Position numbers and translations under genes: made by a program. This document shows positions 418-42,875 of a DNA stretch of 42,875 nt, piece after piece (the stretch's first letter is position 1; every line of letters begins with the position of its first letter). Source of the stretch: Deltaproteobacteria bacterium. GTDB lineage: Bacteria; Desulfobacterota; Desulfuromonadia; Geobacterales; Pseudopelobacteraceae. The stretch spans positions 1-42,875 of the forward strand of contig JAFLLC010000090.1 in NCBI GenBank assembly GCA_019162745.1, in the 5' to 3' direction. The notes under the pieces are model-generated. The model was not told the DNA's origin, searched no databases, and was given only the letters and a program-made list of their open reading frames with translations.

Positions 418-2463
418 ATGGAAATGCACAAAAAATCAATTTCAAAATCTCTTACCTCGTTTAATACTCAGTCTGCTGTAACTGATTCTTTGCTTGTCGG
501 GAAAGCTATAGGCAAAAGCCATCACATTTCGCCCGTAATCTTGAAAAAAATGGCTGTTGATGCACAGAACCCTCTTGATAAGGCAATTGAACGGACTCGT
601 GATTTCTTTTTTAGTGAGCAATTGCCTGATGGCTACTGGTGGGCAGAGCTTGAATCAAATGTAACAATTACGTCTGAGTATATTATGCTGTTTCATTTTC
701 TTGGCATGGTCGATAAAGCGCGCGAACGAAAGATGGCGCATTATATTCTGAACAAGCAGACCGTGGATGGGTGGTGGTCGGTCTGGCATGGCGGTCCGGG
801 AGATCTTTCCACAACTATTGAAGCGTATTTTGCTCTTAAGCTGGCTGGCTATGCTGCTGGTGATCCTGTCATGTGCAGGGCACGCGACTTCATCCTCTCT
901 AAAGGAGGGATTCTAAAGGCGCGTGTATTTACAAAAATATTTTTGGCGTTGTTTGGTGAATTCTCCTGGTTGGGCGTACCGTCAATGCCGATTGAACTTA
1001 TGATGCTTCCGGAATGGGCTTATTTTAATATTTATGAGTTGTCAAGCTGGTCACGCGCAACAATTATACCGCTTTCTGTTGTCATGTCGGAAAACCCGGT
1101 CAGAAAATTACCTCCGCAAGCCAGAGTCCAAGAACTTTTTGTCCGTCCGCCCCGTCCCGCTGATTACTCGTTTTCCCGTCAGGACGGAGTCGTGAGTTGG
1201 AAGAACTTTTTTATAGGCATAGATCATCTGCTGAAGATTTATGAATCATCTCCCCTTCGCCCGTTAAAGAAAAGATCGGCTGCTCTTGCCGAGCGGTGGA
1301 TACTGGATCATCAGGAATCGAGTGGCGATTTGGGGGGGATCCAGCCGGCCATGCTCAATTCTATTCTCGCCCTGCATTGCCTCGGTTATGCAAACGATCA
1401 TCCTGCTGTTGCAAGCGGACTTGAAGCGCTTGCAAATTTCTGTATTGAGGATCAAGACAGCCTGGTACTGCAGTCATGCGTTTCTCCCCTCTGGGACACA
1501 GCGTTGGTTCTGGTTGCGATGCAGGAAGCAGGCGTTCCGGTTGATCATCCGGCTCTGGTTAAGTCCGCTCAGTGGCTTCTGGATCGAGAGGTTCGTTCCA
1601 AGGGGGACTGGCAGGTTAAATCTCCCGATCTTGAGCCGGGTGGTTGGGCGTTTGAGTTTTTAAATGACTGGTATCCCGATATAGATGACACCGGTTTTGT
1701 CATGCTTGCACTTAAGGATATCGATGTTCGTGACAAAAAGCATAAAGAGCAGGCCATCAAGCGCGGCATTGCCTGGTGCCTCGGAATGCAGAGCAAAAAT
1801 GGCGGGTGGGGAGCATTTGATAAAGACAATACAAAGTATCTTCTTAACAAGATCCCTTTTGCCGATCTGGAGGCGCTGATTGATCCTCCGACCGCCGATC
1901 TTACCGGTCGCATGCTTGAACTTATGGGCACGTTCGATTTCCCCCCCAATCATCCTGCCGTCGTCCGGGCGCTGGACTTTCTCAAGGCAGAACAGGAACC
2001 TGAGGGTCCCTGGTGGGGACGTTGGGGTGTTAATTATATTTACGGCACCTGGTCGGTGCTCGGCGGGTTGAGTGCCATTGGCGAAGATATGACCCAGCCG
2101 TATATCCGAAAAGCTGTTGACTGGCTTAAGTCCAGGCAGAATCCGGATGGCGGGTGGGGTGAGGTCTGTGAATCGTATGATGACCGCTCTCTGATGGGGT
2201 GCGGTCCAAGTACCCCGTCGCAAACCAGCTGGGCGCTTCTTACGCTCTTTGCCGCCGGAGAGGTGCATTCAAAAGCTGCTTCGCGTGGTGCCGAATATCT
2301 TGTTGCCGCCCAGAAACCGGATGGCACATGGGATGAGGATGCTTTCACCGGGACAGGGTTCCCCAAGTTTTTCATGATAAAATATCACATATATCGTAAT
2401 TGCTTCCCATTGACGGCACTCGGCAGATATCGTCGCTTGCTCTCTGAGAGTGCAAAGAACTAA
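418..2463 (+). CDS. shc: Squalene-hopene cyclase
   Basis: Cyclises squalene to hopene/hopanol, the first committed step of hopanoid lipid synthesis, as a monotopic inner-membrane enzyme. The catalytic acid motif DIDD is visible at about residues 421-424. Several QW repeats that brace the alpha-alpha barrels are present (QTVDGWW, QSKNGGWG, QNPDGGWG, QKPDGTW). The length of 681 aa is normal for the family. An ATG at 403 is also in frame, but GGAG at 405-408 lies nine bases before the ATG at 418, so I chose 418. The gene shares one base with hpnA (TAATG) and heads a plus-strand run that includes dxs. The family call is very secure; which of possibly several cyclase copies in the genome this is cannot be told from here. 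Confidence 0.95.
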   Translation: MEMHKKSISKSLTSFNTQSAVTDSLLVGKAIGKSHHISPVILKKMAVDAQNPLDKAIERTRDFFFSEQLPDGYWWAELESNVTITSEYIMLFHFLGMVDKARERKMAHYILNKQTVDGWWSVWHGGPGDLSTTIEAYFALKLAGYAAGDPVMCRARDFILSKGGILKARVFTKIFLALFGEFSWLGVPSMPIELMMLPEWAYFNIYELSSWSRATIIPLSVVMSENPVRKLPPQARVQELFVRPPRPADYSFSRQDGVVSWKNFFIGIDHLLKIYESSPLRPLKKRSAALAERWILDHQESSGDLGGIQPAMLNSILALHCLGYANDHPAVASGLEALANFCIEDQDSLVLQSCVSPLWDTALVLVAMQEAGVPVDHPALVKSAQWLLDREVRSKGDWQVKSPDLEPGGWAFEFLNDWYPDIDDTGFVMLALKDIDVRDKKHKEQAIKRGIAWCLGMQSKNGGWGAFDKDNTKYLLNKIPFADLEALIDPPTADLTGRMLELMGTFDFPPNHPAVVRALDFLKAEQEPEGPWWGRWGVNYIYGTWSVLGGLSAIGEDMTQPYIRKAVDWLKSRQNPDGGWGEVCESYDDRSLMGCGPSTPSQTSWALLTLFAAGEVHSKAASRGAEYLVAAQKPDGTWDEDAFTGTGFPKFFMIKYHIYRNCFPLTALGRYRRLLSESAKN

Positions 2464-3446
2464 TGAAAACGTTTGTTACCGGTGCTACCGGTTTTATCGG
2501 TGCCAGCATCGTTCGTGAACTGCTCCGCGATGGGCGGGAAGTGCGGGTGCTGGTGCGGCAGGCTTCAAACCTTGCCAACCTGAAAGGGCTTGATGTAGAG
2601 ATATGGAAGGGGGACCTACTTGATTCTGCAGGGTTACGGCGTGGGCTTGATGGGTGTGATATCCTTTATCATGCTGCGGCTGATTATCGCCTCTGGACCC
2701 CTGACCCTGACGAAATGTATCGCACCAATGTGGAGGGGACTGCCGCTGTTATGGAAGCAGCGATGGAGAGTAATATCTCGCGAGTCGTCTACACCAGCAG
2801 CGTCGGAACGCTCGGAAACCCCGGTAATGGAATGCCGGGGACTGAAGATACGAAAGTATCGCTGGCTGATATGGTCGGCCCGTACAAGAAAAGTAAATTC
2901 CTTGCTGAGCGCGAGGCAGAGCGGTTTGTTGCCCGTGGATTACCGCTGGTAATCGTCAATCCTTCGACTCCGGTGGGAGCTTGGGATATAAAGCCTACAC
3001 CTACCGGGAAAATAATTGTCAATTTTCTGAAACGGAGGATGCCGGCATATCTGGATACCGGTCTGAATTTGATTGCTGTCGAGGATTGTGCCCGCGGGCA
3101 TATTCTGGCAGAGCAAAAAGGTCAAGTCGGCCGCAAATACATATTGGGCAACGCCGATCTTTCCCTGCATGATATTTTCAGGGTGCTCCAGGAGATAACC
3201 GGTATTCCGGCACCGAAAATCCGGCTGCCGTATGCACCTGTACTGGCGGCAGCCTGGCTCAATGAGTTGCTTTCCCGGATATCAGGCCGCGAACCATTAA
3301 TCCCGCTGGCGGGAGTCCGGATGGCGGCACACCATATGTATTTTGACTCCGGACGTGCGGTTCGGGAACTCGGTTTGCCGCAGACATCAGTCGCGGAAGC
3401 TCTGAAACGAGCGGTTGAGTGGTTCCGCACGAACAACTATGTTTAG
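2463..3446 (+). CDS. hpnA: Hopanoid-associated sugar epimerase HpnA (NAD-dependent epimerase/dehydratase)
   Basis: An extended short-chain dehydrogenase with the nucleotide-binding motif GATGFIG (residues 7-13) and the catalytic pair Y141xxxK145 (YKKSK), preceded by a TSS motif near 111-113. Length 327 aa fits HpnA. Its start overlaps the stop of shc by one base, which is the known hpn context. In hopanoid producers HpnA is associated with side-chain sugar modification, but its exact reaction is not established. The hopanoid role is inferred from the linkage; a generic dihydroflavonol-4-reductase label would describe the same fold. Confidence 0.88.
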   Translation: MKTFVTGATGFIGASIVRELLRDGREVRVLVRQASNLANLKGLDVEIWKGDLLDSAGLRRGLDGCDILYHAAADYRLWTPDPDEMYRTNVEGTAAVMEAAMESNISRVVYTSSVGTLGNPGNGMPGTEDTKVSLADMVGPYKKSKFLAEREAERFVARGLPLVIVNPSTPVGAWDIKPTPTGKIIVNFLKRRMPAYLDTGLNLIAVEDCARGHILAEQKGQVGRKYILGNADLSLHDIFRVLQEITGIPAPKIRLPYAPVLAAAWLNELLSRISGREPLIPLAGVRMAAHHMYFDSGRAVRELGLPQTSVAEALKRAVEWFRTNNYV

Positions 3447-3497
3447 TTAACGCACTCATCCAGTTTATCTGGGTTAGGATCGCAAGAGGACTCAACA

Positions 3498-5363
3498 ATG
3501 CTGCTTGAAACTATAAACTCTCCAGCTGACCTAAAAAAAATGCAACAGGAACAGCTGCCCGAACTTGCAGCAGAAGTCAGGAAATTTCTTTTGGAAACCG
3601 TTTCCGACACTGGCGGCCATCTTGGCTCCAATCTCGGAACTGTTGAGCTGTCAATCGCACTGCATTACTGTTTCAACTCCCCGAGTGACAAAATAATCTG
3701 GGATGTCGGACATCAGGCCTATACCCACAAAATTCTCACCGGGCGCCGCGACCGCTTTCATACACAGCGCCAGTACAAAGGGATTTCAGGTTTTCCGAAG
3801 CGGTGTGAATCAGAGCATGATGCATTCGGGGTCGGTCACTCATCCACCTCCATCTCGGCTGGCCTTGGTATGGCTGTTGCGGCCAGCCTCGATGGTAAGA
3901 GGAATCATTCAATAGCGGTTATCGGCGACGGCTCCCTGACCGGCGGAATGGCTTTTGAAGCGCTGAATCAGGCTGGTCATCTCAAAAAAAATCTGATTGT
4001 CATTCTGAACGACAACGAAATGTCGATTTCAAAGAATGTCGGCGCTTTTTCTACGTTTATTTCGCGAAAGATGACGGGGCGTTACTACCGGGATTTAAAA
4101 AAAGAGATACAGGTATTACTCAAAAATATTCCGGCCTTTGGCACTGACATCCTGCAGTTTGCCCGCCGTGCTGAAAACTCGCTGAAGGGGTTTCTTACCC
4201 CCGGCTCTCTGTTTGAGGCGCTTGGTTTCGATTATCTGGGCCCTCTGGACGGGCATGACCTGCATCAGCTGGTTGATGTGTTCAATAATATCAATCAGCT
4301 GGATGGCCCGTTGCTAGTGCATGTCCTGACTACCAAAGGGAAAGGGTACAAACCTGCCGAAGAGACCCCGGCCAAATATCATGGTGTTGGCGCCTTTGAT
4401 GTCGCGACCGGTAAAGGGGCCGCCAAACCAGCGGTAAAATCCTATACGGACCTTTTCGGCGAAACCATGCTGCAGCTAGCGGAAGAAGATCCAAAGATTA
4501 TCGCCATTACCGCAGCCATGCCGGATGGGACAGGACTTAATCAGTTTTCGCAGCGTTTCCCGGATCGTTTTTTTGATGTCGGTATAGCCGAGCAACATGC
4601 GATGACCTTTGCAGCCGGCCTTGCTGCTGACGGATTCAGACCGGTGGTCGCAATATATTCAACCTTCGTCCAACGTGCCTACGACCAGGTTTTTCATGAT
4701 ATTTGCCTGCAAAACCTGCCGGTAACCATAGCGATGGACCGTGCCGGACTGGTGGGAGATGACGGCCCGACTCATCATGGTGTTTTTGATTTGTCCTATC
4801 TGCGCCACCTGCCGGGAATAACCGTTATGGCTCCCAAAGACGAGAATGAATTGCGCCACATGCTCAAAACGGCTGTTTATTCGGGGCTGCCGATTGCGCT
4901 CCGCTATCCGAGAGGGGCTGGATACGGCGTGCTGCTGGATCGTGAGCTGAATATTGTTGAGATAGGGAAGGGTGAACAGCTGTTTGACGGTGATGATCTG
5001 ACCATTGTTGCGATTGGAGCAACGGTCTATCCGGCAGTTCAGGCGGCTGATGCGCTAAGGCTGAAGGGGTTTTCCGTTGGGGTCGTCAATGCCCGCTTTG
5101 TGAAACCGCTTGATGCTGAACTCATCCTCGGTGTTGCCCGGCGTACCGGCAGAATCCTGACGGTGGAGGAAAACGCCCTGCAGGGGGGCTTTGGCAGCGC
5201 TGTTCTTGAAATTTTATATGACAATAACCTGCAGGATGTAAAAGTGCGCCGGCTTGGCCTTCCGGATCATTATATTGAACAGGGGAGTCAGGCCCAACTG
5301 CGCAGGGATGTCGGTATAGATGCGGAAGGAATCACCGCAGCAGCTTTAGAATTCATGAAATGA
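3498..5363 (+). CDS. dxs: 1-deoxy-D-xylulose-5-phosphate synthase
   Basis: Condenses pyruvate and glyceraldehyde 3-phosphate with thiamine diphosphate, the entry step of the MEP isoprenoid pathway. Visible family features are the N-terminal [12 protein letters not shown] segment, the thiamine-binding GDGSLTGG motif near residue 150, the catalytic [16 protein letters not shown] stretch near 370 and a C-terminal transketolase domain ending in [11 protein letters not shown]. Length 621 aa is typical. AGAGGA at 3485-3490 precedes the ATG by seven bases. It lies 51 bases after hpnA with no terminator between, so isoprenoid supply is probably co-transcribed with the cyclase that consumes it. Confidence 0.97.
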
Positions 5364-6096: not shown

Positions 6097-6839
6097 AAGG
6101 TGAACTGATCTTTGGCGTCAATCCGGTAAAAGAATCTCTGCAGGGGACACGCGGTGCCTTCAACCTGTATGTACAGATCAGTGCCACCGATCATCGGGTT
6201 GAAAAGATTATCAGGCTGGCCGAGGAACGTGGTGTTGCGGTGCACCGCCGGGATAAAGGCGACCTTAACAGAATGTGTGCCTCTTCACATCACCAGGGTA
6301 TTGCTCTGGAGGTAGAACCGTTCCGCTACACCGACTTCGACGATCTGCTGACATCTATCAGCCAGTCCGGTTCGAACGGTTTTCTTCTCGTGCTGGACGC
6401 AATTCAGGACCCTCACAACCTGGGTGCTTTGATCCGTTCAGCCGCCTGCGCCGGTGTTGACGGCGTCATTATTCCCAAAGACCGTGCCTGCGGCATCACC
6501 GCTGCCGCCGAAAAGACCTCGGCCGGTGCTGTAGAGACTGTCCCGGTGGCAATGGTTACCAATGTTGCTCAGACGCTTGAAACGCTGAAAAAACTCGGCT
6601 TCTGGATTTACGGACTGGATGGCGCTGCCAGGCAGTCCGTCTATGGAACAGACTTCTCTGGAAACGTTGCCCTGGTGGTTGGTGGAGAAGGGGAGGGGAT
6701 CAGGCCGCTCGTACGCAAACAGTGCGATGTCGTGATGTCGATCCCGCAGTATGGCGGGGTGAGTTCACTCAATGCCTCTGTCGCAGGCGGAATTGCACTG
6801 TTTGAGATTGCGAGGAAGGTGCGGGGGGTAAGCGGGTGA
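6093..6839 (+). CDS. rlmB: 23S rRNA (guanosine-2'-O-)-methyltransferase RlmB family (SpoU/TrmH SPOUT)
   Basis: A SPOUT 2'-O-ribose methyltransferase. Motif 1 is DAIQDPHNLGALIRSAACAG, motif 2 is LVVGGEGEGIRPLV and motif 3 is IPQYGGVSSLNASVAGGIAL, forming the trefoil-knot SAM site. An N-terminal SpoU substrate-binding domain is recognisable (FGVNPVKESL). An in-frame start at 6060 exists, but the protein homologous part begins MKGELIFG at 6093, where the ATG overlaps the pyrF stop by four bases. Length from there is 248 aa, right for RlmB. RlmB in E. coli modifies G2251 of 23S rRNA; whether this member has that target or is a paralogous TrmH-type enzyme cannot be decided from sequence alone. Confidence 0.9.
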   Translation: MKGELIFGVNPVKESLQGTRGAFNLYVQISATDHRVEKIIRLAEERGVAVHRRDKGDLNRMCASSHHQGIALEVEPFRYTDFDDLLTSISQSGSNGFLLVLDAIQDPHNLGALIRSAACAGVDGVIIPKDRACGITAAAEKTSAGAVETVPVAMVTNVAQTLETLKKLGFWIYGLDGAARQSVYGTDFSGNVALVVGGEGEGIRPLVRKQCDVVMSIPQYGGVSSLNASVAGGIALFEIARKVRGVSG

Positions 6840-6859
6840 CGCCGCAAGGACATACCGCC

Positions 6860-7360
6860 ATGAACTATCAGGCTATTGGAACGATACGTACCCCTTATAC
6901 CGAAGTGACCGGCGCTCCGTATCAGTCGGCTGAACCGGAAGAGCAGGATGACAGGCTGTTTTACGTTGAGCTGAATGATGAGTATGCCGAGGGTCTTTAT
7001 CGTTTGGATTCGTTTAGCTATCTCTACCTGCTGTACCATATTGATCGTCTGAAAAAGCCTTGCAATCTGCAGATAAGGCCAGCATGGACTGGTGATCGAA
7101 TCACTGTCGGTCTGTTTGCCAGCCGTTCACCAGCCCGCCCCAATTCAATCGGTCTTAGTGTCGTTCGCTTGTATGCTGTCGAAGGGAACCGTATCTACAC
7201 ATCATCACTGGATGTCTTTAACGGTACTCCCCTGCTGGATATAAAACCGTATATACGCGATCTGGATACCAAGAATGATGCAAATTACGGCTGGATTGAT
7301 GATTTGCCGGATAGAGATCACCTGATGCTTCATATAAAGGGTGTGCCGCATGATTATTGA
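6860..7360 (+). CDS. trmO: tRNA (t6A37-N6)-methyltransferase TrmO/TsaA family
   Basis: A beta-barrel SAM methyltransferase of the UPF0066/TsaA family; E. coli TrmO methylates N6 of t6A at tRNA position 37. Conserved segments are AIGTIRTPY at the start, SPARPNSIGLSVVRL near residue 93 and NGTPLLDIKPYI near 125. An in-frame GTG at 6836 overlaps the rlmB stop, but the family start is M-x-x-x-AIGTIRTP, and AAGGA (6846-6850) sits nine bases before the ATG at 6860. The product is 166 aa, slightly shorter than E. coli TrmO because it lacks a long C-terminal extension. Short members have not all been tested for tRNA activity. Confidence 0.82.
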   Translation: MNYQAIGTIRTPYTEVTGAPYQSAEPEEQDDRLFYVELNDEYAEGLYRLDSFSYLYLLYHIDRLKKPCNLQIRPAWTGDRITVGLFASRSPARPNSIGLSVVRLYAVEGNRIYTSSLDVFNGTPLLDIKPYIRDLDTKNDANYGWIDDLPDRDHLMLHIKGVPHDY

Positions 7361-7392
7361 GCAATTCTAAATCGATATAAGGAGTAACGCCA

Positions 7393-7806
7393 ATGGAAAG
7401 ATTAGCGGTAATCTTTGGAACATCTACAGATGGAACGTTGTGGGGGAAGCATTTCGGTGACGCTGAGATTTTTGTCAAATATTACCTGTATCCCGACAAA
7501 GAGCCGGAATATGTGGGGGAAGTAACTAATAAGGCGAGGAATGTTGATGAACAGCACAACAGTGCGGGAAAGTTATCTGAAATAATCCAGCTGCTTGGTA
7601 GTTGTGACTGTGTTGCTGCGGTTGTAATGAGTCCAAACTTTAAAAAAATGGCAGCAGAAAAACCGATCCAACCGGTAGTGGTAAAGGTGGAAAAACGTGA
7701 AGAGCTGTTACACTCCTTACGTAAAAACTTCAGCATGCTTGAGCCACTGGTAATGAAAAGGAAAGGCGGGGTGATGGAAAAAGAGGTCCCTGTCATCTCC
7801 TTATAG
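7393..7806 (+). CDS. NifX/NafY-like dinitrogenase iron-molybdenum cofactor-type domain protein
   Basis: A 137-aa protein that starts with a beta strand and continues with a glycine-rich turn (LAVIFGTSTDGTLWGKHFGDAEIFVKYY, quoted here only by its start LAVIFGTSTDGTLWGKHFGD). It ends its Rossmann-like fold with CDCVAAVVMSPNFKK and QPVVVKVEKREELL. This pattern fits the Nitro_FeMo-Co domain of NifX, NifB C-termini and related small proteins. AAGGAG lies eight bases before the ATG. No nif gene is nearby, so a nitrogenase role should not be assumed; many such stand-alone proteins are of unknown function. It closes the shc-led plus-strand run and converges on the aldolase gene four bases away. Confidence 0.65.
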   Translation: MERLAVIFGTSTDGTLWGKHFGDAEIFVKYYLYPDKEPEYVGEVTNKARNVDEQHNSAGKLSEIIQLLGSCDCVAAVVMSPNFKKMAAEKPIQPVVVKVEKREELLHSLRKNFSMLEPLVMKRKGGVMEKEVPVISL

Positions 7807-7809
7807 TCT

Positions 7810-8988
7810 TTAAAGGCTTTTTTGGTACCTTTCGTCAAAGCGCCGGAAATATTCCCCTCGGCACCAGTTTTCAACGTCAACCAGCCCCTGAAAAGCTTCG
7901 CGGAAATCGGCCATGCCGATGCTGAACACTCCGTGACCGTACACTATCGCGCTTCCGGTTCTACCTATCACCGGCGGAACATTCCTGGCGATGCCGCCGG
8001 CGCCGATTTCACCTGCTACTACCGGAGTATTTCCCAGAAAGCGGACTTTTGAGCAATCTCTCCAGCAGTCCGTAACATGGCATGATTCTTTTTCGTCACA
8101 GATCATGCTCATGACCACAGCAAAGCGCGGATGGCCGTGTAAAATGGCACGACAACCAGTCGTTTCAAAAATGGCGCGGTGCGCAACCAGTTCGCTGGAG
8201 GCGGTAATGCCGACTGTTGAGCTGTTTTCAAAGGGAACCGGATCGATGCAGCCGGCGAGTTCGTCCAGACTGGATGCGGTTTGTGAAATATATATCAGGT
8301 TGCCGCTTGAATAAGAAATATTGCCGAAAAAGGAATCAACCAGACCCCGTTGTACGGTATACCTGCCGATGCGAGCCATCTCTTCAAGAATGGCATTTTT
8401 TTCAGCAAACGGACCCTGGCAAAACTCCAGCCCTGCGGATGAAAGCGGATTAAGCAAGCCACGGCGAAAATATTTGAATGCAGCCTCTTCGCCCGGAAGC
8501 ATGAAGCCGTCTTCGAGCAGATCTTCAAGGTATTTGATGTAGGTTGCATGAAAAACCGAAGACCAGTTGATATAGGCCTGTTCAACCGTCAATGCCCCGG
8601 CGGCGATGATCCCGAGGCCCTCAACGACGATTCCTTTGCGGGTTCCCAGCAGTGTGGCAATTTTTTCTGCAGGACAAGAACGGAACTCTCCTTTTCGTAT
8701 TATCGGAATGTCATGCAGAAAGGTGCGGGTCTCGGTGTCGCGCGGGACTATTTTCTGCTCATGAGCGGCGCTCCGCTGAACCAGAAAATCAGCAAAAGGA
8801 AGTGAAGGGGCAGCGATGACCAGTGCGAGGAAATTCAGGCGGGATAGTACTGATTCCGACAGCGAGGTCAGGAAAGGTTCACCGTCAGAAATTATGACAT
8901 CGTCCTGGGCCGCAAAGGCGATCTGCCCCGCCTGTGCCGAGCCTTCTGAAATAAGTTTACAGGTATATTTGTCAATTTGGCCGTGCAT
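7810..8988 (-). CDS. Class II aldolase/adducin family protein with a degenerate N-terminal copy
   Basis: The C-terminal half (about residues 200-380) is an intact class II aldolase/adducin domain. It has FGNISY for the phosphate-loop region and the zinc ligand candidates E266 (SSELVAH), H284 and H286 (LHGHPRF), and H352 (VYGHGVFSIG). These enzymes cleave or epimerise sugar phosphates such as fuculose or ribulose 5-phosphate; the substrate here is unknown. The N-terminal 160 residues look like a second, decayed copy: KGIVVEGLGIIAAGALTVEQ at 119-138 parallels the H352 segment but has leucine in place of the histidine. Its start overlaps the stop of the peptidase gene by one base (TGATG). The 392-aa length is nearly twice that of FucA. 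Confidence 0.8.
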   Translation of the reverse strand: MHGQIDKYTCKLISEGSAQAGQIAFAAQDDVIISDGEPFLTSLSESVLSRLNFLALVIAAPSLPFADFLVQRSAAHEQKIVPRDTETRTFLHDIPIIRKGEFRSCPAEKIATLLGTRKGIVVEGLGIIAAGALTVEQAYINWSSVFHATYIKYLEDLLEDGFMLPGEEAAFKYFRRGLLNPLSSAGLEFCQGPFAEKNAILEEMARIGRYTVQRGLVDSFFGNISYSSGNLIYISQTASSLDELAGCIDPVPFENSSTVGITASSELVAHRAIFETTGCRAILHGHPRFAVVMSMICDEKESCHVTDCWRDCSKVRFLGNTPVVAGEIGAGGIARNVPPVIGRTGSAIVYGHGVFSIGMADFREAFQGLVDVENWCRGEYFRRFDERYQKSL

Positions 8989-9860
8989 CAGGGAATTGAT
9001 TCAGGAATATTGGTAAAGAGAATCGAGCCGTCGGAAAGGGTTTCACTCCGAAAGCGGTGTGCCCTACGGTTGCTGGCTACCAGCGTTGTTTTCGGCAGAG
9101 TCACGCCGCTGTCGGGAAGAAAGGCCATAGTTATATTTGACCCTGCCCGCCAAGCTTCAAAATGGAGATGCGGTCCGGTTGATCTTCCGGTAGAGCCGGA
9201 AAGAGCCAGGGTGCTTTCCGGCGTAACCTCCTGGCCCTCTGCTACCAGGATTCGGCTGTTGTGCGCGTACAGAGTAATGATCCCATTGTCATGTTCGACG
9301 ACTACAGTATTGCCATATCCTGAACGGCTTCCGCTGTAGACGACCACGCCGGGGGCAACCGGATTGACTACGGTTCCGCTGGGAATCGCTATGTCAATGC
9401 CGTTGTGCTGGCGCCAGGTCCCATCAATCGGATCGATTCTCATCCCTACCCGCGAGGTTATCGTACCGCCGACAGGAGGCAGCTGAGGTTTGAAACTGTT
9501 TTGTTCCGCTTCGTGAGGATTGAGAGAGGCAGCAACCGCTTTTTGGACAATTTCATCGAGCGAGATGTCATGGAATTTTTGCTTCTTTGATGATTTACGC
9601 TGTTTGGTGGTTTTAGCCGTGTGCTCTTTAATGACCACTGTGGCGCTCTTGTTGCTGGGAGCATCGGTAAATGTCTCAACTCCGTCAACAGTGACAAAAC
9701 GATAAATATCAGCTCCTGCAAAGGAGCTGACAAGGGTAAAAACAAAGGTTAAAGGCAGCGTGTATAAAAAGCGGAATCTGTTCCAAAACAGGCGTTGCGT
9801 TTTAGCAGGATTTGTCAATTGTGCTTGTTGTTCGGCACAATTTCTGATAGATAAATTCAT
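8988..9860 (-). CDS. Secreted LytM/M23 peptidase with DUF4124-like segments
   Basis: An envelope zinc endopeptidase, or a degenerate activator, of the M23 family that acts on peptidoglycan cross-links. An N-terminal hydrophobic segment (LYTLPLTFVFTLVSSFAGA) should export it. Next comes a DUF4124-like piece (IYRFVTVDGVETFTDAPS), then a basic linker rich in Lys/Thr, and then the M23 domain with HNGIDIAIPSG (HxxxD ligands), YAHNSRI and HLHFE. All metal-binding residues are present, which favours an active enzyme. A second DUF4124-like end (SDGSILFTNIPE) closes the protein. An in-frame ATG at 9878 lacks a ribosome site; the ATG at 9860 is chosen, though GGA before it is also weak. It is translationally coupled to the aldolase and divergent from the PilZ gene. 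Confidence 0.85.
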   Translation of the reverse strand: MNLSIRNCAEQQAQLTNPAKTQRLFWNRFRFLYTLPLTFVFTLVSSFAGADIYRFVTVDGVETFTDAPSNKSATVVIKEHTAKTTKQRKSSKKQKFHDISLDEIVQKAVAASLNPHEAEQNSFKPQLPPVGGTITSRVGMRIDPIDGTWRQHNGIDIAIPSGTVVNPVAPGVVVYSGSRSGYGNTVVVEHDNGIITLYAHNSRILVAEGQEVTPESTLALSGSTGRSTGPHLHFEAWRAGSNITMAFLPDSGVTLPKTTLVASNRRAHRFRSETLSDGSILFTNIPESIP

Positions 9861-9910
9861 TCGTCCACTGTATCTCATTTTAAAAAATAGTACAATTCAT
9901 CATCTTCGGG

Positions 9911-10633
9911 GTGCTGGTGGTTTCTCCATATTACGACAAAGCAGTGCGGGGAACCGAACGAGAAGATTTGCTGGTTATTCTTCAGTTTCTACAGGAGATG
10001 ATCGGCAAGACGTTTTCTTTTTTAAACTATTACAAAGAAATCCCCGTTTCATATGATGCAACCTTGCTGAGTGTCGAAAATGAGATGGCGGAGTTTGCCG
10101 TTCATGAGTATCAGGCCAAGGTTATTAATATAGAGAAAAAAACGCTCATTCATGCTCATGCACGGAGCTCGTTTCCGGAAGATATGATTGGTGAGGCCTT
10201 TTATATAAGCTCTGCCAAAAAGCGCGTCATTCTGTGCAATTTAGGTTATGCAAATATTCGTTCGGACATGAGGCGCTTTGTGCGGGTTCTGCTTGATAAT
10301 CCGGTTGAAGCGGAACTGATTTTTGAAGGAGATATTTTATCAGGCAATGTGAAGGATATTTCGCTCGGCGGCGCTGCAATCAGCACCATGTCTGCCGATC
10401 TCCTGGTCGCGGGCCTTGACATAAACATGTTTCTAAAGCTGCCTGAACTTGATGGTAACTCTATGCTTGAAGTGGGACTAAGTGCGACGATTATTAAAGT
10501 TATCGGGGTGAGCGCTCCATTTACCTGCATTATAGAATTTCATGCGGAAAAACATTCTCAACAGCAGATTTCCCACTATATCAACCAGCGCCAGGTTGAA
10601 ATAATCAAGGAGCTTAAGGATGTTAAGATCTGA
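9911..10633 (+). CDS. PilZ domain protein, predicted c-di-GMP receptor
   Basis: The PilZ domain lies at about residues 117-225. Both c-di-GMP motifs are visible: RxxxR (R117-R121 and R121-R125 within RSDMRRFVR) and D149-x-S-x-x-G154 in DISLGG. The first 110 residues form a separate N-terminal domain, probably of the YcgR/flagellar-brake type, with beta-rich text. The output is unknown, but such proteins adjust motility, pili or polysaccharide. The start is GTG at 9911 or at 9917; GGGG at 9907-9911 would serve the second. It shares a short divergent region with the M23 peptidase and is followed by an inverted repeat. Confidence 0.85.
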   Translation: MLVVSPYYDKAVRGTEREDLLVILQFLQEMIGKTFSFLNYYKEIPVSYDATLLSVENEMAEFAVHEYQAKVINIEKKTLIHAHARSSFPEDMIGEAFYISSAKKRVILCNLGYANIRSDMRRFVRVLLDNPVEAELIFEGDILSGNVKDISLGGAAISTMSADLLVAGLDINMFLKLPELDGNSMLEVGLSATIIKVIGVSAPFTCIIEFHAEKHSQQQISHYINQRQVEIIKELKDVKI

Positions 10634-39208: not shown

Positions 39209-39366
39209 AAAAACAGGGTAAGGGGTCATGGGGCAAGGGTCAAGGAAAAACAGTCAGAGTAACAATCTCTTAAGTGTCAAAATAACGGCAAAAAATTTGC
39301 GACCACCCGGAGAAATTGGATGGGGACTAACCTGCCTATCAAGATGGACTCAATTGACGGGCCTTA

Positions 39367-39499
39367 CTACACGAAACCTAATTCAATCCGTTTGCCGAAC
39401 ACCCGAGCGATTTCGAGGATTTTGACGGTAGGGTTGGTCTTGCGGGGGTTTTCCAGGCTGGTAGGAGATGTTGAACTGCCGTGCCACCTCCCTCGCTAC
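39367..39499 (-). pseudogene. Remnant of an XRE-type (antitoxin-like) DNA-binding protein
   Basis: The minus strand carries the end of a helix-turn-helix protein in two frames. From 39499 it reads VAREVARQFNISYQ; after a one-base shift near 39454-39460 it reads SLENPRKTNPTVKILEIARV and then FGKRIELGFV before TAG at 39367. This order (helix-turn-helix, ENP turn, LEIARVFGK, terminal beta strand) is typical of small XRE antitoxins and regulators of the HigA/HipB kind. The first helices are missing, since the AraC gene ends at this exact point. No matching toxin was recognised between 39209 and 39366; that 158-base stretch holds nothing else I can support. Confidence 0.6.
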
Positions 39500-40320
39500 T
39501 ACCCAGAAAAAATCTGTTGTTTGAACTTTCCGGGAGAGATGCCATAGATTGATTTAAAGTGACGTGTCAAATGGCTCTGGTCAGCGAAACCGATCTCCAG
39601 CGCAGTATCAACCAGCGTGTAACCCTTGCAAATCAGCTCACGAGCTCTTTCCAGTCGTAAACGTAACAGGTATGCATAAGGCGTAATCCCTGTCTCCTTC
39701 TTGAAAAACCGAATAAGATGAAATGGAGTACAGTCAAACCTCGCGGATAATTCATTAAGGGAGATATTAACTGACAGCCGACTCTGAAAAAGATCGATAA
39801 TTTTGCGCACACGCATTTTTTCATTGCCAATTACTGGCCCCTGAATTTTTGTGGTCGCATGTCTTCCTGTCAGCAAGCTGAAAGTCTCCAGTAAAGCGGA
39901 CTCTTTTTCTAATAGAGATGTTGAATAATGAAGAATGCTAAATAGCTTGGCTAATAAGTCGAGACATTCAGGATCACGATAAAAATCACTTTTAAATTCA
40001 ACAGAGGCGGGATTAGCGGAACTAAGTTGTCGTGCTACTGATTGAAATAGCGCAGGCTTCACATAAAAGGTCATCAGGCTACGGGATAAACAGTCAATTG
40101 TTCGGTTAGCATGGACTTCACCCGGAGCTACAATGCTAAAACTTGCGGACTGAAGAATGTTTGTGCTGCCACGTTGCGTATACTGTTCGCCGCCGCTCCT
40201 GTTGAACCAGATGCAGTATGTATGATGGAAATGGGCCGGAAAATTAAAACTAACATCAAGGCATGATAGGAGTTCAATTTCATTGAAACCAAATGGCCTG
40301 AAATAATGGATTTTATTCAC
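39499..40320 (-). CDS. AraC family transcriptional regulator
   Basis: A 273-aa regulator with an N-terminal cupin sensor (FPAHFHHTYCIWFNRSGGEQ near residue 30, with VAPGEVHANRT) and a C-terminal double helix-turn-helix. The latter runs from INISLNELSARFDCTPFHLI-like text to the signature ALEIGFADQSHLTRHFKSIY. It likely senses a small molecule and activates its own operon. The start is GTG 40320, overlapping the EamA gene by eight bases. The AAGGAG next to it is too close, while AGGG nine bases upstream fits, so the start is uncertain. Base composition is AT-rich relative to the rest of the window. It abuts the XRE remnant. Confidence 0.88.
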   Translation of the reverse strand: MNKIHYFRPFGFNEIELLSCLDVSFNFPAHFHHTYCIWFNRSGGEQYTQRGSTNILQSASFSIVAPGEVHANRTIDCLSRSLMTFYVKPALFQSVARQLSSANPASVEFKSDFYRDPECLDLLAKLFSILHYSTSLLEKESALLETFSLLTGRHATTKIQGPVIGNEKMRVRKIIDLFQSRLSVNISLNELSARFDCTPFHLIRFFKKETGITPYAYLLRLRLERARELICKGYTLVDTALEIGFADQSHLTRHFKSIYGISPGKFKQQIFSG

Positions 40321-41191
40321 TCCTTTTTACCCTGACAAACCGCTTAATCGTATCCAGAGCAACAAGTGCGGCACCAACAACAATCATAAGGCAAGCTATA
40401 GCAGTATTCCAGCTTGGCTCGGCACGTCCAAAGGAGATTAACATAATAGTAGAAATCAACGGTGCTGTATATGAAAGAGTCCCCAATAACTTAATATTTC
40501 CATGCTTTACGCCATAATCCCAGAAGAAAAATGCTGCCCCAACCGGGCCGACACCCAATGCAATAACAGCAAGCCATTCTGAACGATCCAAGCTTACACT
40601 GTTTTCTAGCAGCAGGTGACATGTTGCTGATAGAAGTGCTGTTACCCCGCAGAAACCGCCTACCAATTCAGTCGGTGATTCGCCGAGCAATCTTGATATT
40701 ATCGAATATGTGGCCCAAATTAATGAACAGGAAAACGCCGCAGCATAGCCGACAATATACTCTGGCTTTAAATTAAGTGATCCTCCCTTGAGCATAATCA
40801 AAGTAGCACCTGCAAACCCGATAAATGCGCCGACAAGATGAAACCAATGCAATTTTTCTTTTGGTAACAATGCGGAAAAAATCACAATGAACAATGGCCA
40901 TAAATAAGCAATGAGACTTGCTTCAACAGCAGGGGCATTTTTAAGGGCAATAAAATATAATATATGGTACCCGAAAAGTCCGAAAACACCGTTTAGCCAC
41001 ACAATAACGGGCTGCTTAAAGCATCTTGAGTTGGCACCTTTAAATCCCCAGAAAAGTAGTCCAACCACAAAAGCAATCGTGAAGGTCATAGCAGTCAATT
41101 GCAGCGGAGGTATTTTATTCGTAAAAGACGTTAACAATGCCAACAATCCCCACATGAGAATGGCACTAAAACCTATCATGGTAGATTTCAT
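40313..41191 (-). CDS. EamA (drug/metabolite) family exporter
   Basis: A ten-helix DMT-superfamily membrane protein of 292 aa with two EamA repeats. The first covers FSAILMWGLLALLTSFTNKI to VEASLIAYLWPLFIVIFSAL; the second covers YAAAFSCSLIWATYSIISRL to GNIKLLGTLSYTAPLISTIM. The AYLWPLF and LSYTAPL segments end each repeat as in YddG-type amino-acid and metabolite exporters. The frame is open to 41284, but GGAG five bases before ATG 41191 fixes the start, leaving 89 bases after the radical SAM stop. Its product may be the one made by the neighbouring radical SAM enzyme, which is inference. Confidence 0.88.
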   Translation of the reverse strand: MKSTMIGFSAILMWGLLALLTSFTNKIPPLQLTAMTFTIAFVVGLLFWGFKGANSRCFKQPVIVWLNGVFGLFGYHILYFIALKNAPAVEASLIAYLWPLFIVIFSALLPKEKLHWFHLVGAFIGFAGATLIMLKGGSLNLKPEYIVGYAAAFSCSLIWATYSIISRLLGESPTELVGGFCGVTALLSATCHLLLENSVSLDRSEWLAVIALGVGPVGAAFFFWDYGVKHGNIKLLGTLSYTAPLISTIMLISFGRAEPSWNTAIACLMIVVGAALVALDTIKRFVRVKRSE

Positions 41192-41280
41192 AGGTTCTCC
41201 AAATAATTTGAAAAAACCGGCAAGTTGAAACTGGCCTAAGTCTATATTCAACAGTTTACCATCCTGTAAAATCACCGTAA

Positions 41281-42875
41281 TCAATCTCTACTAATCGGCC
41301 AAGTGCCGGTCTTTGCAATCAACTCATATCCATCGGCACCAACAGTAGTTATGATTGCAGCGACCCTAGCAAGACTCATCGTATCCCTACACCAACTGCC
41401 ATCTGGTGCATCAAGGCTACCAAATTCATGTGAAAAACCCTCATCTGTATTGTTAATTGTATATTTTCTCAATTCTGCAAAATGCGGTGCACCTGGAAGT
41501 GGAGTAAAAACAAATGGATTTATATATGTTGCCCCAGCGGTCATCAGCATTTTACCGTAGTCAACACTGTTTTTCACGTGCTTCCGAGTTTCCAAGTAAT
41601 TTTCATCCGGGTTAATGAAACCAAGCATTAACCCACAGGTCGTCTTAATGTTGTACTTTTTGAACAACTGTACTATTTTGTGAGTGTGCACTTCAATGGC
41701 ATTGAGCTTTGGTTTATTTGAGGCATCAAGTGATTCATGATTTGCAGTCTCTACGGCTAAATATATACTGTAACATCCACTGTCAGCCATCGCTTTTATG
41801 AACTTTTCAGCAGTCAGCCCATTTCTTCGCGCCAATATAGTATTTCTAAACACGCTATCGTTATTAACACTTGAGTATATGATTTCTTCAGACACTTCAG
41901 GAAGAAGTGCAATGAGATTATACAAACTAACACCACCTTCTTCCATCCATGGCAAATTGTATTTTGTAAGCTTATCAAATACAGTCATTGCCCAAATTGG
42001 ATCATGGAGGAGATGATCATCTTCAAGCATAAACTCTGTTACACCATTAGATTTCAAATAGCTCAGATAACTATCAAAAACTGATTCCTTCATGGATATC
42101 CACCCGCCCTGAAGACCTGGGATAGTGCAAAAATTGCATCGTGTATTACAGCCAAAAGATGAAAATCCGTAAACAAGATGTCCGTGATCTAGCTGTCGTT
42201 CTCCCGCAGAGTGATACCTTCCACTGTAGAGTTTTAAATCTATGAGAGAAAGATCGGGTATGGCAATTTCTGTTATATCAGAAATAAAGCTCCTTTTTTT
42301 TGTATACACTATTTCCCCGTTTGCCCGATAAGCGATACCATTTATTTCAGAAAGATGACGAGAGTTTCTTCCAGTCAGTACGTCGAGCAGCTCGGTAAAT
42401 GTATAATCTGCTTGACCGAGAACAACAAAATCTATAGGAGAAGTCAAAAGTGCCTCTGCTGGGAGACCATTTGAATGAACGCCTCCCATGATTACAGGAA
42501 CATCAGGAGTCATCTGCTTGATAAGATCAGCAACCTCACAGGCATTACCCCATTGATGAGAGTAGGGGCATGTAATCGCAACCACATCTGGTTTGTATAA
42601 TTTCACCTTGTTTGCTAGAGATATTGAGGTTAGGCCATATGATAGTATTGTGCTGTCTTCTGTGCTTTTAAAGTATTCTCTCTCTTCTTCCCATCCCTCG
42701 TATACAACATCAATAATTTTCACATAATATCCTGATTTTTTTGCTAAAGTTCCAATTCGGAGAAGCCCCATAGGTATACCTGCTCGTTTCATTTCTTCCA
42801 AATGGGTAATTCCCATGTCTTTTAGACATAATGTCCGCCAGTAGAATAAAAAAAGGACTCGCCCCTTGCTAACGT
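41281..42875 (-). CDS. B12-binding-type radical SAM protein, 5' end cut by the window edge
   Basis: The frame runs off the right edge. Before the first internal ATG (42816) it reads SKGRVLFLFYWRTLCLKDMG without a stop, and this looks like a genuine family N-terminus, so the true start lies outside. The next part is a cobalamin-binding-like Rossmann domain: IPMGLLRIGTLAKKSGYYVK, VVAITCPYSHQWGNACEVAD with HxxG, VIMGGVHSNGLP and DFVVLGQADYTFTELL. The usual DxHxxG aspartate and the GEGE motif are altered. The radical SAM cluster is C-x3-C-x2-C in FGCNTRCNFCTIPG (C223, C227, C230 counted from 42816), with a TIM-barrel and a C-terminal region ending in TGTWPISRD. The substrate is unknown. It leads the operon with the EamA and AraC genes. 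Confidence 0.85.
   Translation of the reverse strand, partial: VSKGRVLFLFYWRTLCLKDMGITHLEEMKRAGIPMGLLRIGTLAKKSGYYVKIIDVVYEGWEEEREYFKSTEDSTILSYGLTSISLANKVKLYKPDVVAITCPYSHQWGNACEVADLIKQMTPDVPVIMGGVHSNGLPAEALLTSPIDFVVLGQADYTFTELLDVLTGRNSRHLSEINGIAYRANGEIVYTKKRSFISDITEIAIPDLSLIDLKLYSGRYHSAGERQLDHGHLVYGFSSFGCNTRCNFCTIPGLQGGWISMKESVFDSYLSYLKSNGVTEFMLEDDHLLHDPIWAMTVFDKLTKYNLPWMEEGGVSLYNLIALLPEVSEEIIYSSVNNDSVFRNTILARRNGLTAEKFIKAMADSGCYSIYLAVETANHESLDASNKPKLNAIEVHTHKIVQLFKKYNIKTTCGLMLGFINPDENYLETRKHVKNSVDYGKMLMTAGATYINPFVFTPLPGAPHFAELRKYTINNTDEGFSHEFGSLDAPDGSWCRDTMSLARVAAIITTVGADGYELIAKTGTWPISRD

Follow-up and report, generated by a model that had tools for sequence, protein, structure and literature searches.

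A cobalamin-binding radical SAM gene, split by an insertion sequence, beside a YddG-family exporter and an AraC-family regulator in a Geobacter-type bacterium

The right end of contig C20 of a Geobacter-type bacterium carries three minus-strand genes, referred to here as araC, yddG and rSAM: an AraC-family regulator, a YddG-family exporter and a cobalamin-binding radical S-adenosylmethionine (SAM) protein whose open reading frame runs up to the contig edge. The whole contig, 42,875 bp and one of the 237 contigs of this genome, is our window; loci of relatives are labelled L, genomes G and contigs C. A first-pass annotation of the same DNA suggested that these genes modify, export and sense a single molecule, which raises the question whether the three genes belong together and what the broken end of the enzyme gene means. 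Our best reading, to which we give an even chance of being right, is an AraC-controlled make-and-export operon, rSAM-yddG-araC, lying beside a citramalate-synthase-like gene, with the enzyme gene broken in this genome. The features on which the argument draws are as follows.

42824..42875, plus strand: IS110-family insertion-sequence (IS) end, transposase-start side; identical ends on C216 and C48, the element running past the contig with its transposase on the plus strand
41281..42823, minus strand: rSAM, 3' part of a cobalamin-binding radical SAM gene; 511 amino acids from the first ATG (42816), Pfam domains, 428-bit ortholog in L108
41281-42873, minus strand: rSAM open frame including the IS-encoded start; 530 amino acids, 5'-open
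41192..41280, minus strand: gap of 89 nucleotides between the rSAM stop and the YddG start, containing the YddG ribosome-binding site
40313..41191, minus strand: YddG-family exporter (EamA/drug-metabolite transporter, DMT); NF050091, match to structure 5i20
39499..40320, minus strand: AraC-family regulator with a cupin-type ligand domain; PF02311, PF12833
39230..39498, minus strand: intergenic DNA with a decayed antitoxin-like C-terminal fragment, from six-frame translation

The family names given to the three genes in the first-pass annotation stand, since B12-binding with Radical_SAM, EamA, and AraC_binding with HTH_18 are all found above Pfam cutoffs.

Pairing of the radical SAM and exporter genes

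In all four rSAM orthologs found, the window included, the gene lies beside yddG, and these four represent two phyla and two independent lineages. An alignment scan of the genome_contigs collection with YddG confirmed at least 505 relatives, of which the best 80 loci were kept. One of these 80, from Streptomyces sp. SDr-06 (L108), has an adjoining rSAM ortholog, which is full-length and aligns with 428 bits to residues 18-528 of the 530-residue window frame. Searches with rSAM only found two carriers among 374 genomes of the class of G527 (SDr-06 and, newly, G881), two among 200 of the family of G881 (G881 and, newly, G1025) and one among 199 of the genus, SDr-06 itself; G881 belongs to the same family as SDr-06, because G551 is listed in both the family and the genus samples. 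Both new genomes have a YddG gene (316 and 298 bits) adjoining rSAM (loci L157 and L159), and the pair is thus present in 3/3 Streptomycetaceae carriers found. There the two genes are convergent, with 21-32 nucleotides between the stops in all three loci, and the gene order differs from that of the window. By blastn (E <= 1e-10) the three loci are similar to each other only over the two genes and differ in their flanks. Values of dN/dS among the three copies are 0.12-0.14 for rSAM and 0.19-0.24 for YddG, and both genes are under purifying selection in this family.

Chance adjacency of rSAM and YddG is unlikely because rSAM is so rare in sampled Streptomycetaceae: centres excluded, its frequency is about 0.5% or less (1/199, 0/198), and the probability of meeting it by luck among 80 YddG neighbourhoods is, by a rough estimate, about 1 in 1000 or lower. 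The two later finds repeat the pairing, though within the same lineage. The link between enzyme and exporter that had been proposed from the window is therefore backed by gene order, and the shared substrate that went with it is still presumed.

The exporter itself is well placed in its family. Scored on the longer frame, it reaches 380.3 bits against the cutoff of 300 of the NCBIfam equivalog NF050091, its EamA domain lies above the Pfam cutoff, and residues 3-279 match structure 5i20 with 294 bits, an entry titled 'Uncharacterized protein' which we take to be YddG of Starkeya novella. The YddG proteins of Starkeya novella and Escherichia coli export amino acids, and from the family, one of exporters of aromatic and neutral amino acids, amino-acid export is predicted for the window protein.

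Streptomyces olindensis (L142, 8432-8486) retains only a relic of rSAM, about 19 residues from its C-terminus, roughly 2.5 kb away from an intact YddG gene, with a transposase-like frame, named from the reading frame itself, between the two; this species has lost the enzyme and kept the exporter. Hidden Markov model (HMM) and tblastn searches of the other 78 loci were aimed at rSAM itself, not at relics as short as this one.

No relative of the enzyme was found at E <= 1e-60 in the 140 other genomes of the order, nor at E <= 1e-40 in 394 other sampled genomes of the phylum, with the best few candidates per genome scored; partial matches at E <= 1e-18, with 24-39% identity, occur in 62 of these 394. 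From 38 candidate homologs the best 24 were aligned, and these together with the window protein make up our rSAM profile. Single-protein scans of genome_contigs and viral_contigs with rSAM, and an alignment scan of viral_contigs, gave nothing; such a single-protein scan misses relatives at about 40% identity, because that of genome_contigs missed the Streptomyces ortholog present there. Phages searched by tblastn and the PHROGs families likewise gave nothing. Plasmids gave 21 distant records by tblastn with the window rSAM (20-25.3% identity in the 4 covering 80%) and none at E <= 1e-25 with the Streptomyces ortholog. On a plasmid of Eleftheria terrae (L043, 6436-9485) two adjacent genes near glycosyltransferase genes are annotated as radical SAM and cobalamin-dependent protein, the second being a distant relative of the window rSAM. 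Among openly licensed PubMed Central full texts we found none that describes a radical SAM gene paired with a YddG/EamA exporter.

Interruption of the radical SAM gene

Judged by its sequence, the rSAM gene is interrupted by an IS110-family element and not merely truncated by the assembly, because the last 52 bases of the window (42824-42875) are the end of such an element. Read on the minus strand, the final 55 bases of the contig equal the start of contig C216 of the same genome, and 53 of them equal the end of its contig C48. Of 141 genomes of the order, this one counted, 20 contain sequence like that of the edge (E <= 0.01). At L041 and L038 it sits directly ahead of a transposase frame, and the L041 transposase has the DEDD_Tnp_IS110 and Transposase_20 domains (PF01548, 67.5 bits; PF02371, 78.8 bits). 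The assignment to IS110 comes through the identity of the end to the L041 copy, the window itself carrying only 52 bp of it. In this copy (L041 1791-3347, G085:C87) non-coding DNA of about 110 bp precedes the transposase and about 320 bp follows it. These lengths correspond to the arrangement of the IS1111 group, to which an excerpt of PMC11208160 ascribes a longer right end. In the same copy Rfam gave no match at gathering cutoff. On contig C48 (L012, about 6635-9942) multiple copies of TCTAAAGGGGACAGGCTACTTTACC lie around a gene resembling REP-associated (repetitive extragenic palindromic) transposases, and one copy abuts the IS110 end.

The IS end also affects the apparent start of the protein. 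In L038 (G109:C383, about 1415-3886) an unrelated frame of 824 amino acids continues in frame from the same end and carries the peptide VSKGRVLFLFYWRTLCLK, and therefore about the first 17 residues of the 530-residue window frame are IS-encoded, a start that imitates the first strand of the B12 domain. Residues 1-17 (VSKGRVLFLFYW...) had been considered as the native first strand of that domain at the contig edge. This was rejected, since the same peptide occurs in the unrelated L038 frame and also since a native-looking strand was found on contig C97. An IS110 end can thus create chimeric open frames, as at the edge of C20 and in L038, and the case shows that an IS end at a contig edge can give a protein a start that looks convincing and is false.

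With the far IS end, taken from L041, as query, two places in the own genome were matched: the terminal 57 bases of C97 and, less strongly, a site in C201. Directly before this end C97 (14076-14353) holds a 5' piece of rSAM, in which AGGAG is followed by an ATG and the frame MIGNNKNTF...KPRILLLVPYYTRISRP...; its PRILLLVPYYTR matches PRVLLLVPSYTRV of the Streptomyces orthologs. Joined at their common CT, the flanks on C97 and C20 give a single frame of 606 codons with AGGAG ahead of the ATG and 40% identity to each ortholog across 574 aligned residues. We infer that a single insertion separates C97 and C20, on the grounds of homology, reading frame, the CT common to both and the upstream motif described below. 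Left of the rSAM piece, C97 carries a gene with HMGL-like, LeuA_dimer and HCS_D2 domains, presumably the set of citramalate synthases. The first-pass annotation had held that membership of the radical SAM gene in a known pathway encoded past the edge would refute its proposal; no such pathway appears there, and the edge is followed by the IS110 element, the missing 5' piece of rSAM and this citramalate-synthase-like gene. The enzyme step is probably off in this genome owing to the insertion.

Enzyme family and proposed reaction

In the 530-residue frame the B12-binding domain (PF02310, residues 80-162) precedes the Radical_SAM domain (PF04055, residues 239-429), both above Pfam cutoffs, and the L108 ortholog has the same order. 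An excerpt of PMC13331322 describes class 1 of cobalamin-dependent radical SAM enzymes as having an N-terminal Rossmann B12 domain followed by the radical SAM domain, the order seen in both proteins. The CxxxCxxC cluster motif is present in 4/4 proteins, as CNTRCNFC in the window and as CNIGCDFC or CNVGCDFC in the three orthologs. By these features rSAM is a class-1-type cobalamin-dependent radical SAM protein, for which cobalamin binding and SAM cleavage are predicted. It reaches no NCBIfam family cutoff.

For the Streptomyces ortholog the fold prediction gave a poor model, with a mean predicted local distance difference test score (pLDDT) of 55. Compared by VIA, this model places CysS (Z 14.5, root-mean-square deviation (rmsd) 7.7, 361 residues aligned), TsrM (Z 14.1, 7.5, 373), OxsB (Z 13.8, 7.2, 346) and TokK (Z 13.7, 7.6, 362) in a tie within 1 Z unit, and AprD4 at Z 12.2 (6.5, 365). 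By Foldseek the first row is MgmA (9ccb, E 8.8e-12) and the second OxsB. In the alignments with TokK, the position of its Trp76, whose role at the cobalt is taken from the excerpt of PMC13331322, is taken by His in the window protein and by Val in L108, and a conserved Trp follows two residues later. Because most fold neighbours are methylases, the reaction of rSAM may well be a methylation, and because its constant partner is YddG, the substrate would be amino-acid-like.

It is also conceivable, if improbable, that rSAM is not a methylase and that it rearranges, cyclises or oxidises its substrate like other cobalamin radical SAM enzymes, with YddG exporting the product. OxsB, according to the excerpt of PMC13331322 a non-methyltransferase, ties with the methylases in VIA and comes second in Foldseek, and AprD4, a diol dehydratase, is close in VIA; however, methylases make up 8/12 of the first VIA rows, and the best family model is that of a P-methyltransferase, though far below its cutoff. 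We give very little credence to a further explanation, namely that rSAM serves a larger pathway located elsewhere in the genome, where it modifies a peptide or a carrier-bound intermediate, and that YddG exports unrelated amino acids. Several superfamily relatives do act on precursors of ribosomally synthesized and post-translationally modified peptides (by their family names) or on pantetheinylated substrates (by entry titles), but the similarity among the three Streptomycetaceae loci is confined to the two genes, their neighbours having been compared as DNA and not as proteins.

The regulator and its candidate operator

The window regulator belongs to the AraC family by PF02311 (37.9 bits, cutoff 21.1) and PF12833/HTH_18 (79.4 bits, cutoff 33.6). 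Among the 140 other genomes of the order six have a YddG relative at E <= 1e-40, and in two of them, G019 and G111 (L035 and L036), an AraC homolog (453 and 443 bits) directly follows YddG. The DNA similarity of these operons to the window extends from 39512 to 41200 only, starting 9 bp before the YddG ATG and ending 13 bp before the end of AraC. Weak AraC-family matches (32 bits) lie near YddG in L077 and L088, and L035 is the same contig as L074. No AraC similar to that of the window was found in the Streptomycetaceae stretches examined, and the complete trio was seen nowhere but in this genome. A recurring three-gene module is not supported by these results, nor by the split state of rSAM here. 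In L035 (38-448) and L036 (4987-6660) frames that by reading are hipB/hipA-like antitoxin and toxin adjoin the yddG-araC pair.

A 27-bp motif, GTCAATTTYGTTCAAGAATRCAAYATT, was found 58 bp ahead of the rSAM start on C97 and also upstream of YddG in G019 and G111. The copies on C97 and in G019 are identical at 24/27 positions, a score reached by 0/1000 dinucleotide shuffles. At up to 5 mismatches there is no further occurrence in the 167 retrieved sequences, which with overlapping loci counted total 1,232,905 bases and do not cover the rest of the genome. There is no exact match in viral contigs, and the motif is absent from the window, the gap between rSAM and YddG included, at up to 3 mismatches. 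It is probably an operator site for AraC, because its three distinct occurrences all precede the first gene of AraC-holding operons, and this would make rSAM the first gene of the regulated operon. The link of the sensor to the other two genes is supported by this shared motif. Promoter scans gave no usable signal, with 1 found against 2.1 expected on C97, and 12 against 8.6 expected in the window region.

The tight spacing ascribed to the three genes holds for araC, whose start overlaps yddG by 8 bp, and probably not for rSAM. The start of yddG is most likely the ATG at 41191, which is preceded by GGAGA and would leave the 89 nucleotides listed above to the rSAM stop; an alternative TTG at 41284 was judged unlikely. 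The DNA is indeed richer in A and T, as first observed: GC content is 0.423, 0.422 and 0.399 in the three genes against 0.51 across 1-39229, and GC at third positions is 0.33-0.40 against 0.61 in the adjoining MATE gene. The low GC content belongs with these genes, because the yddG-araC pair in G019 also has 0.43-0.44. Directly after the AraC stop (39340-39498, minus strand) lies the decayed antitoxin-like fragment, SLENPRKTNPTVKILEIARVFGKRIELGF, which we take to resemble an XRE-type antitoxin.

The conserved pair raises the alternative that rSAM is a chance neighbour: the true unit would be yddG-araC, in which araC senses and yddG acts as an overflow valve for amino acids, and rSAM would have come with low-GC DNA and now be on its way out. 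We consider this rather unlikely. It agrees with the conservation of yddG-araC in G019 and G111 (YddG 76-80% identical), with the restriction of their similarity to that pair, and with the splitting of rSAM by IS110; it agrees poorly with the presence of rSAM beside YddG in every Streptomycetaceae carrier found, and with the motif common to the rSAM-less operons, which here precedes rSAM.

The make-and-export operon, which we prefer, nevertheless has several observations to its disadvantage. In G019 and G111 yddG-araC occurs without rSAM, and in the other four of the six genomes of the order with a YddG relative no such AraC lies beside it in the stretches examined. In 79 of the 80 best YddG loci no intact rSAM was found in the stretch examined (HMM, tblastn). 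The rSAM copies of Streptomycetaceae are 88-91% identical and hence a single lineage, and therefore the evidence amounts to two independent occurrences, in different gene orders and two phyla. The join of C97 and C20 is itself deduced. Lastly, besides the low pLDDT of the fold model, its Foldseek TM-scores by query length are 0.33-0.38, with rmsd 10-13 over the best seven rows.

Proposed function and its significance

According to the proposed mechanism, rSAM would most likely methylate a small amino-acid-like molecule, YddG would then export the product, and AraC would sense the product or a related metabolite and act at the 27-bp site before rSAM, the motif being a putative operator and the product a putative signal. 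A bolder form of this proposal, which we put forward only tentatively, is a minimal two-gene cassette present in two phyla: from a free cellular amino acid rSAM might make a modified one that is secreted as a signal or an antimetabolite, a dedicated YddG might release it, and the Geobacter-type version might add product sensing by AraC. If this is true, few known systems that produce and secrete a non-protein amino acid would be as small.

The reactions of cobalamin radical SAM enzymes are difficult ones, and most of these enzymes are, to our knowledge, without a known substrate. An exporter of known family beside such an enzyme in two phyla narrows the product to YddG cargo, most simply an amino acid, and the intact Streptomyces pair is a two-gene system open to testing.

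Comparison with known systems

TsrM, the tryptophan C-methyltransferase of the thiostrepton pathway, resembles rSAM in its architecture, in which the cobalamin-binding domain comes first, then the radical SAM domain and lastly a C-terminal part; its fold match to the poor model of the Streptomyces ortholog is Z 14.1 (rmsd 7.5, 373 aligned). It is a tryptophan methyltransferase, according to an excerpt of PMC4632189. Identity in the fold alignment is, however, 17%, and TsrM works in an antibiotic (thiostrepton) pathway, whereas here the sole constant partner is an exporter. By sequence, TokK alone among solved structures matches the window rSAM at E <= 0.001 (26.6 bits), but this similarity is weak and covers residues 92-250 only. 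CysS, like TokK a methylase of carrier-bound substrates, heads the VIA list; both it and TokK differ in that, by their entry titles, they were solved with pantetheinylated substrates. MgmA, the best Foldseek row, reaches Z 12.0 in VIA (rmsd 7.0, 335 aligned), yet it has 16-17% identity and, by its entry title, methylates a glutamine of methyl-coenzyme M reductase, that is, a protein residue. Among NCBIfam models that of the Sden_1168 family B12-binding radical SAM P-methyltransferase (NF038361) fits the window and the Streptomyces rSAM best, but the scores, 92.5 and 86.3 bits with about 300 residues matched, lie far below its cutoff of 575, and rSAM does not belong to this nearest named family.

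On the side of the exporter, YddG of Starkeya novella and of Escherichia coli belong to the same DMT family as the window protein, which passes the equivalog cutoff; the difference is that in openly licensed PubMed Central papers we found no YddG reported beside a radical SAM gene. For the proposed function as a whole, a parallel is the norcoronamic acid pathway, in which a cobalamin radical SAM enzyme and few other genes reportedly suffice to make a non-protein amino acid, and the partner of that enzyme is said to be a cyclopropane-forming enzyme and not an exporter. The likeness, drawn by description and not by sequence, lies in the cobalamin radical SAM enzyme that both systems have (excerpt of PMC7277169).

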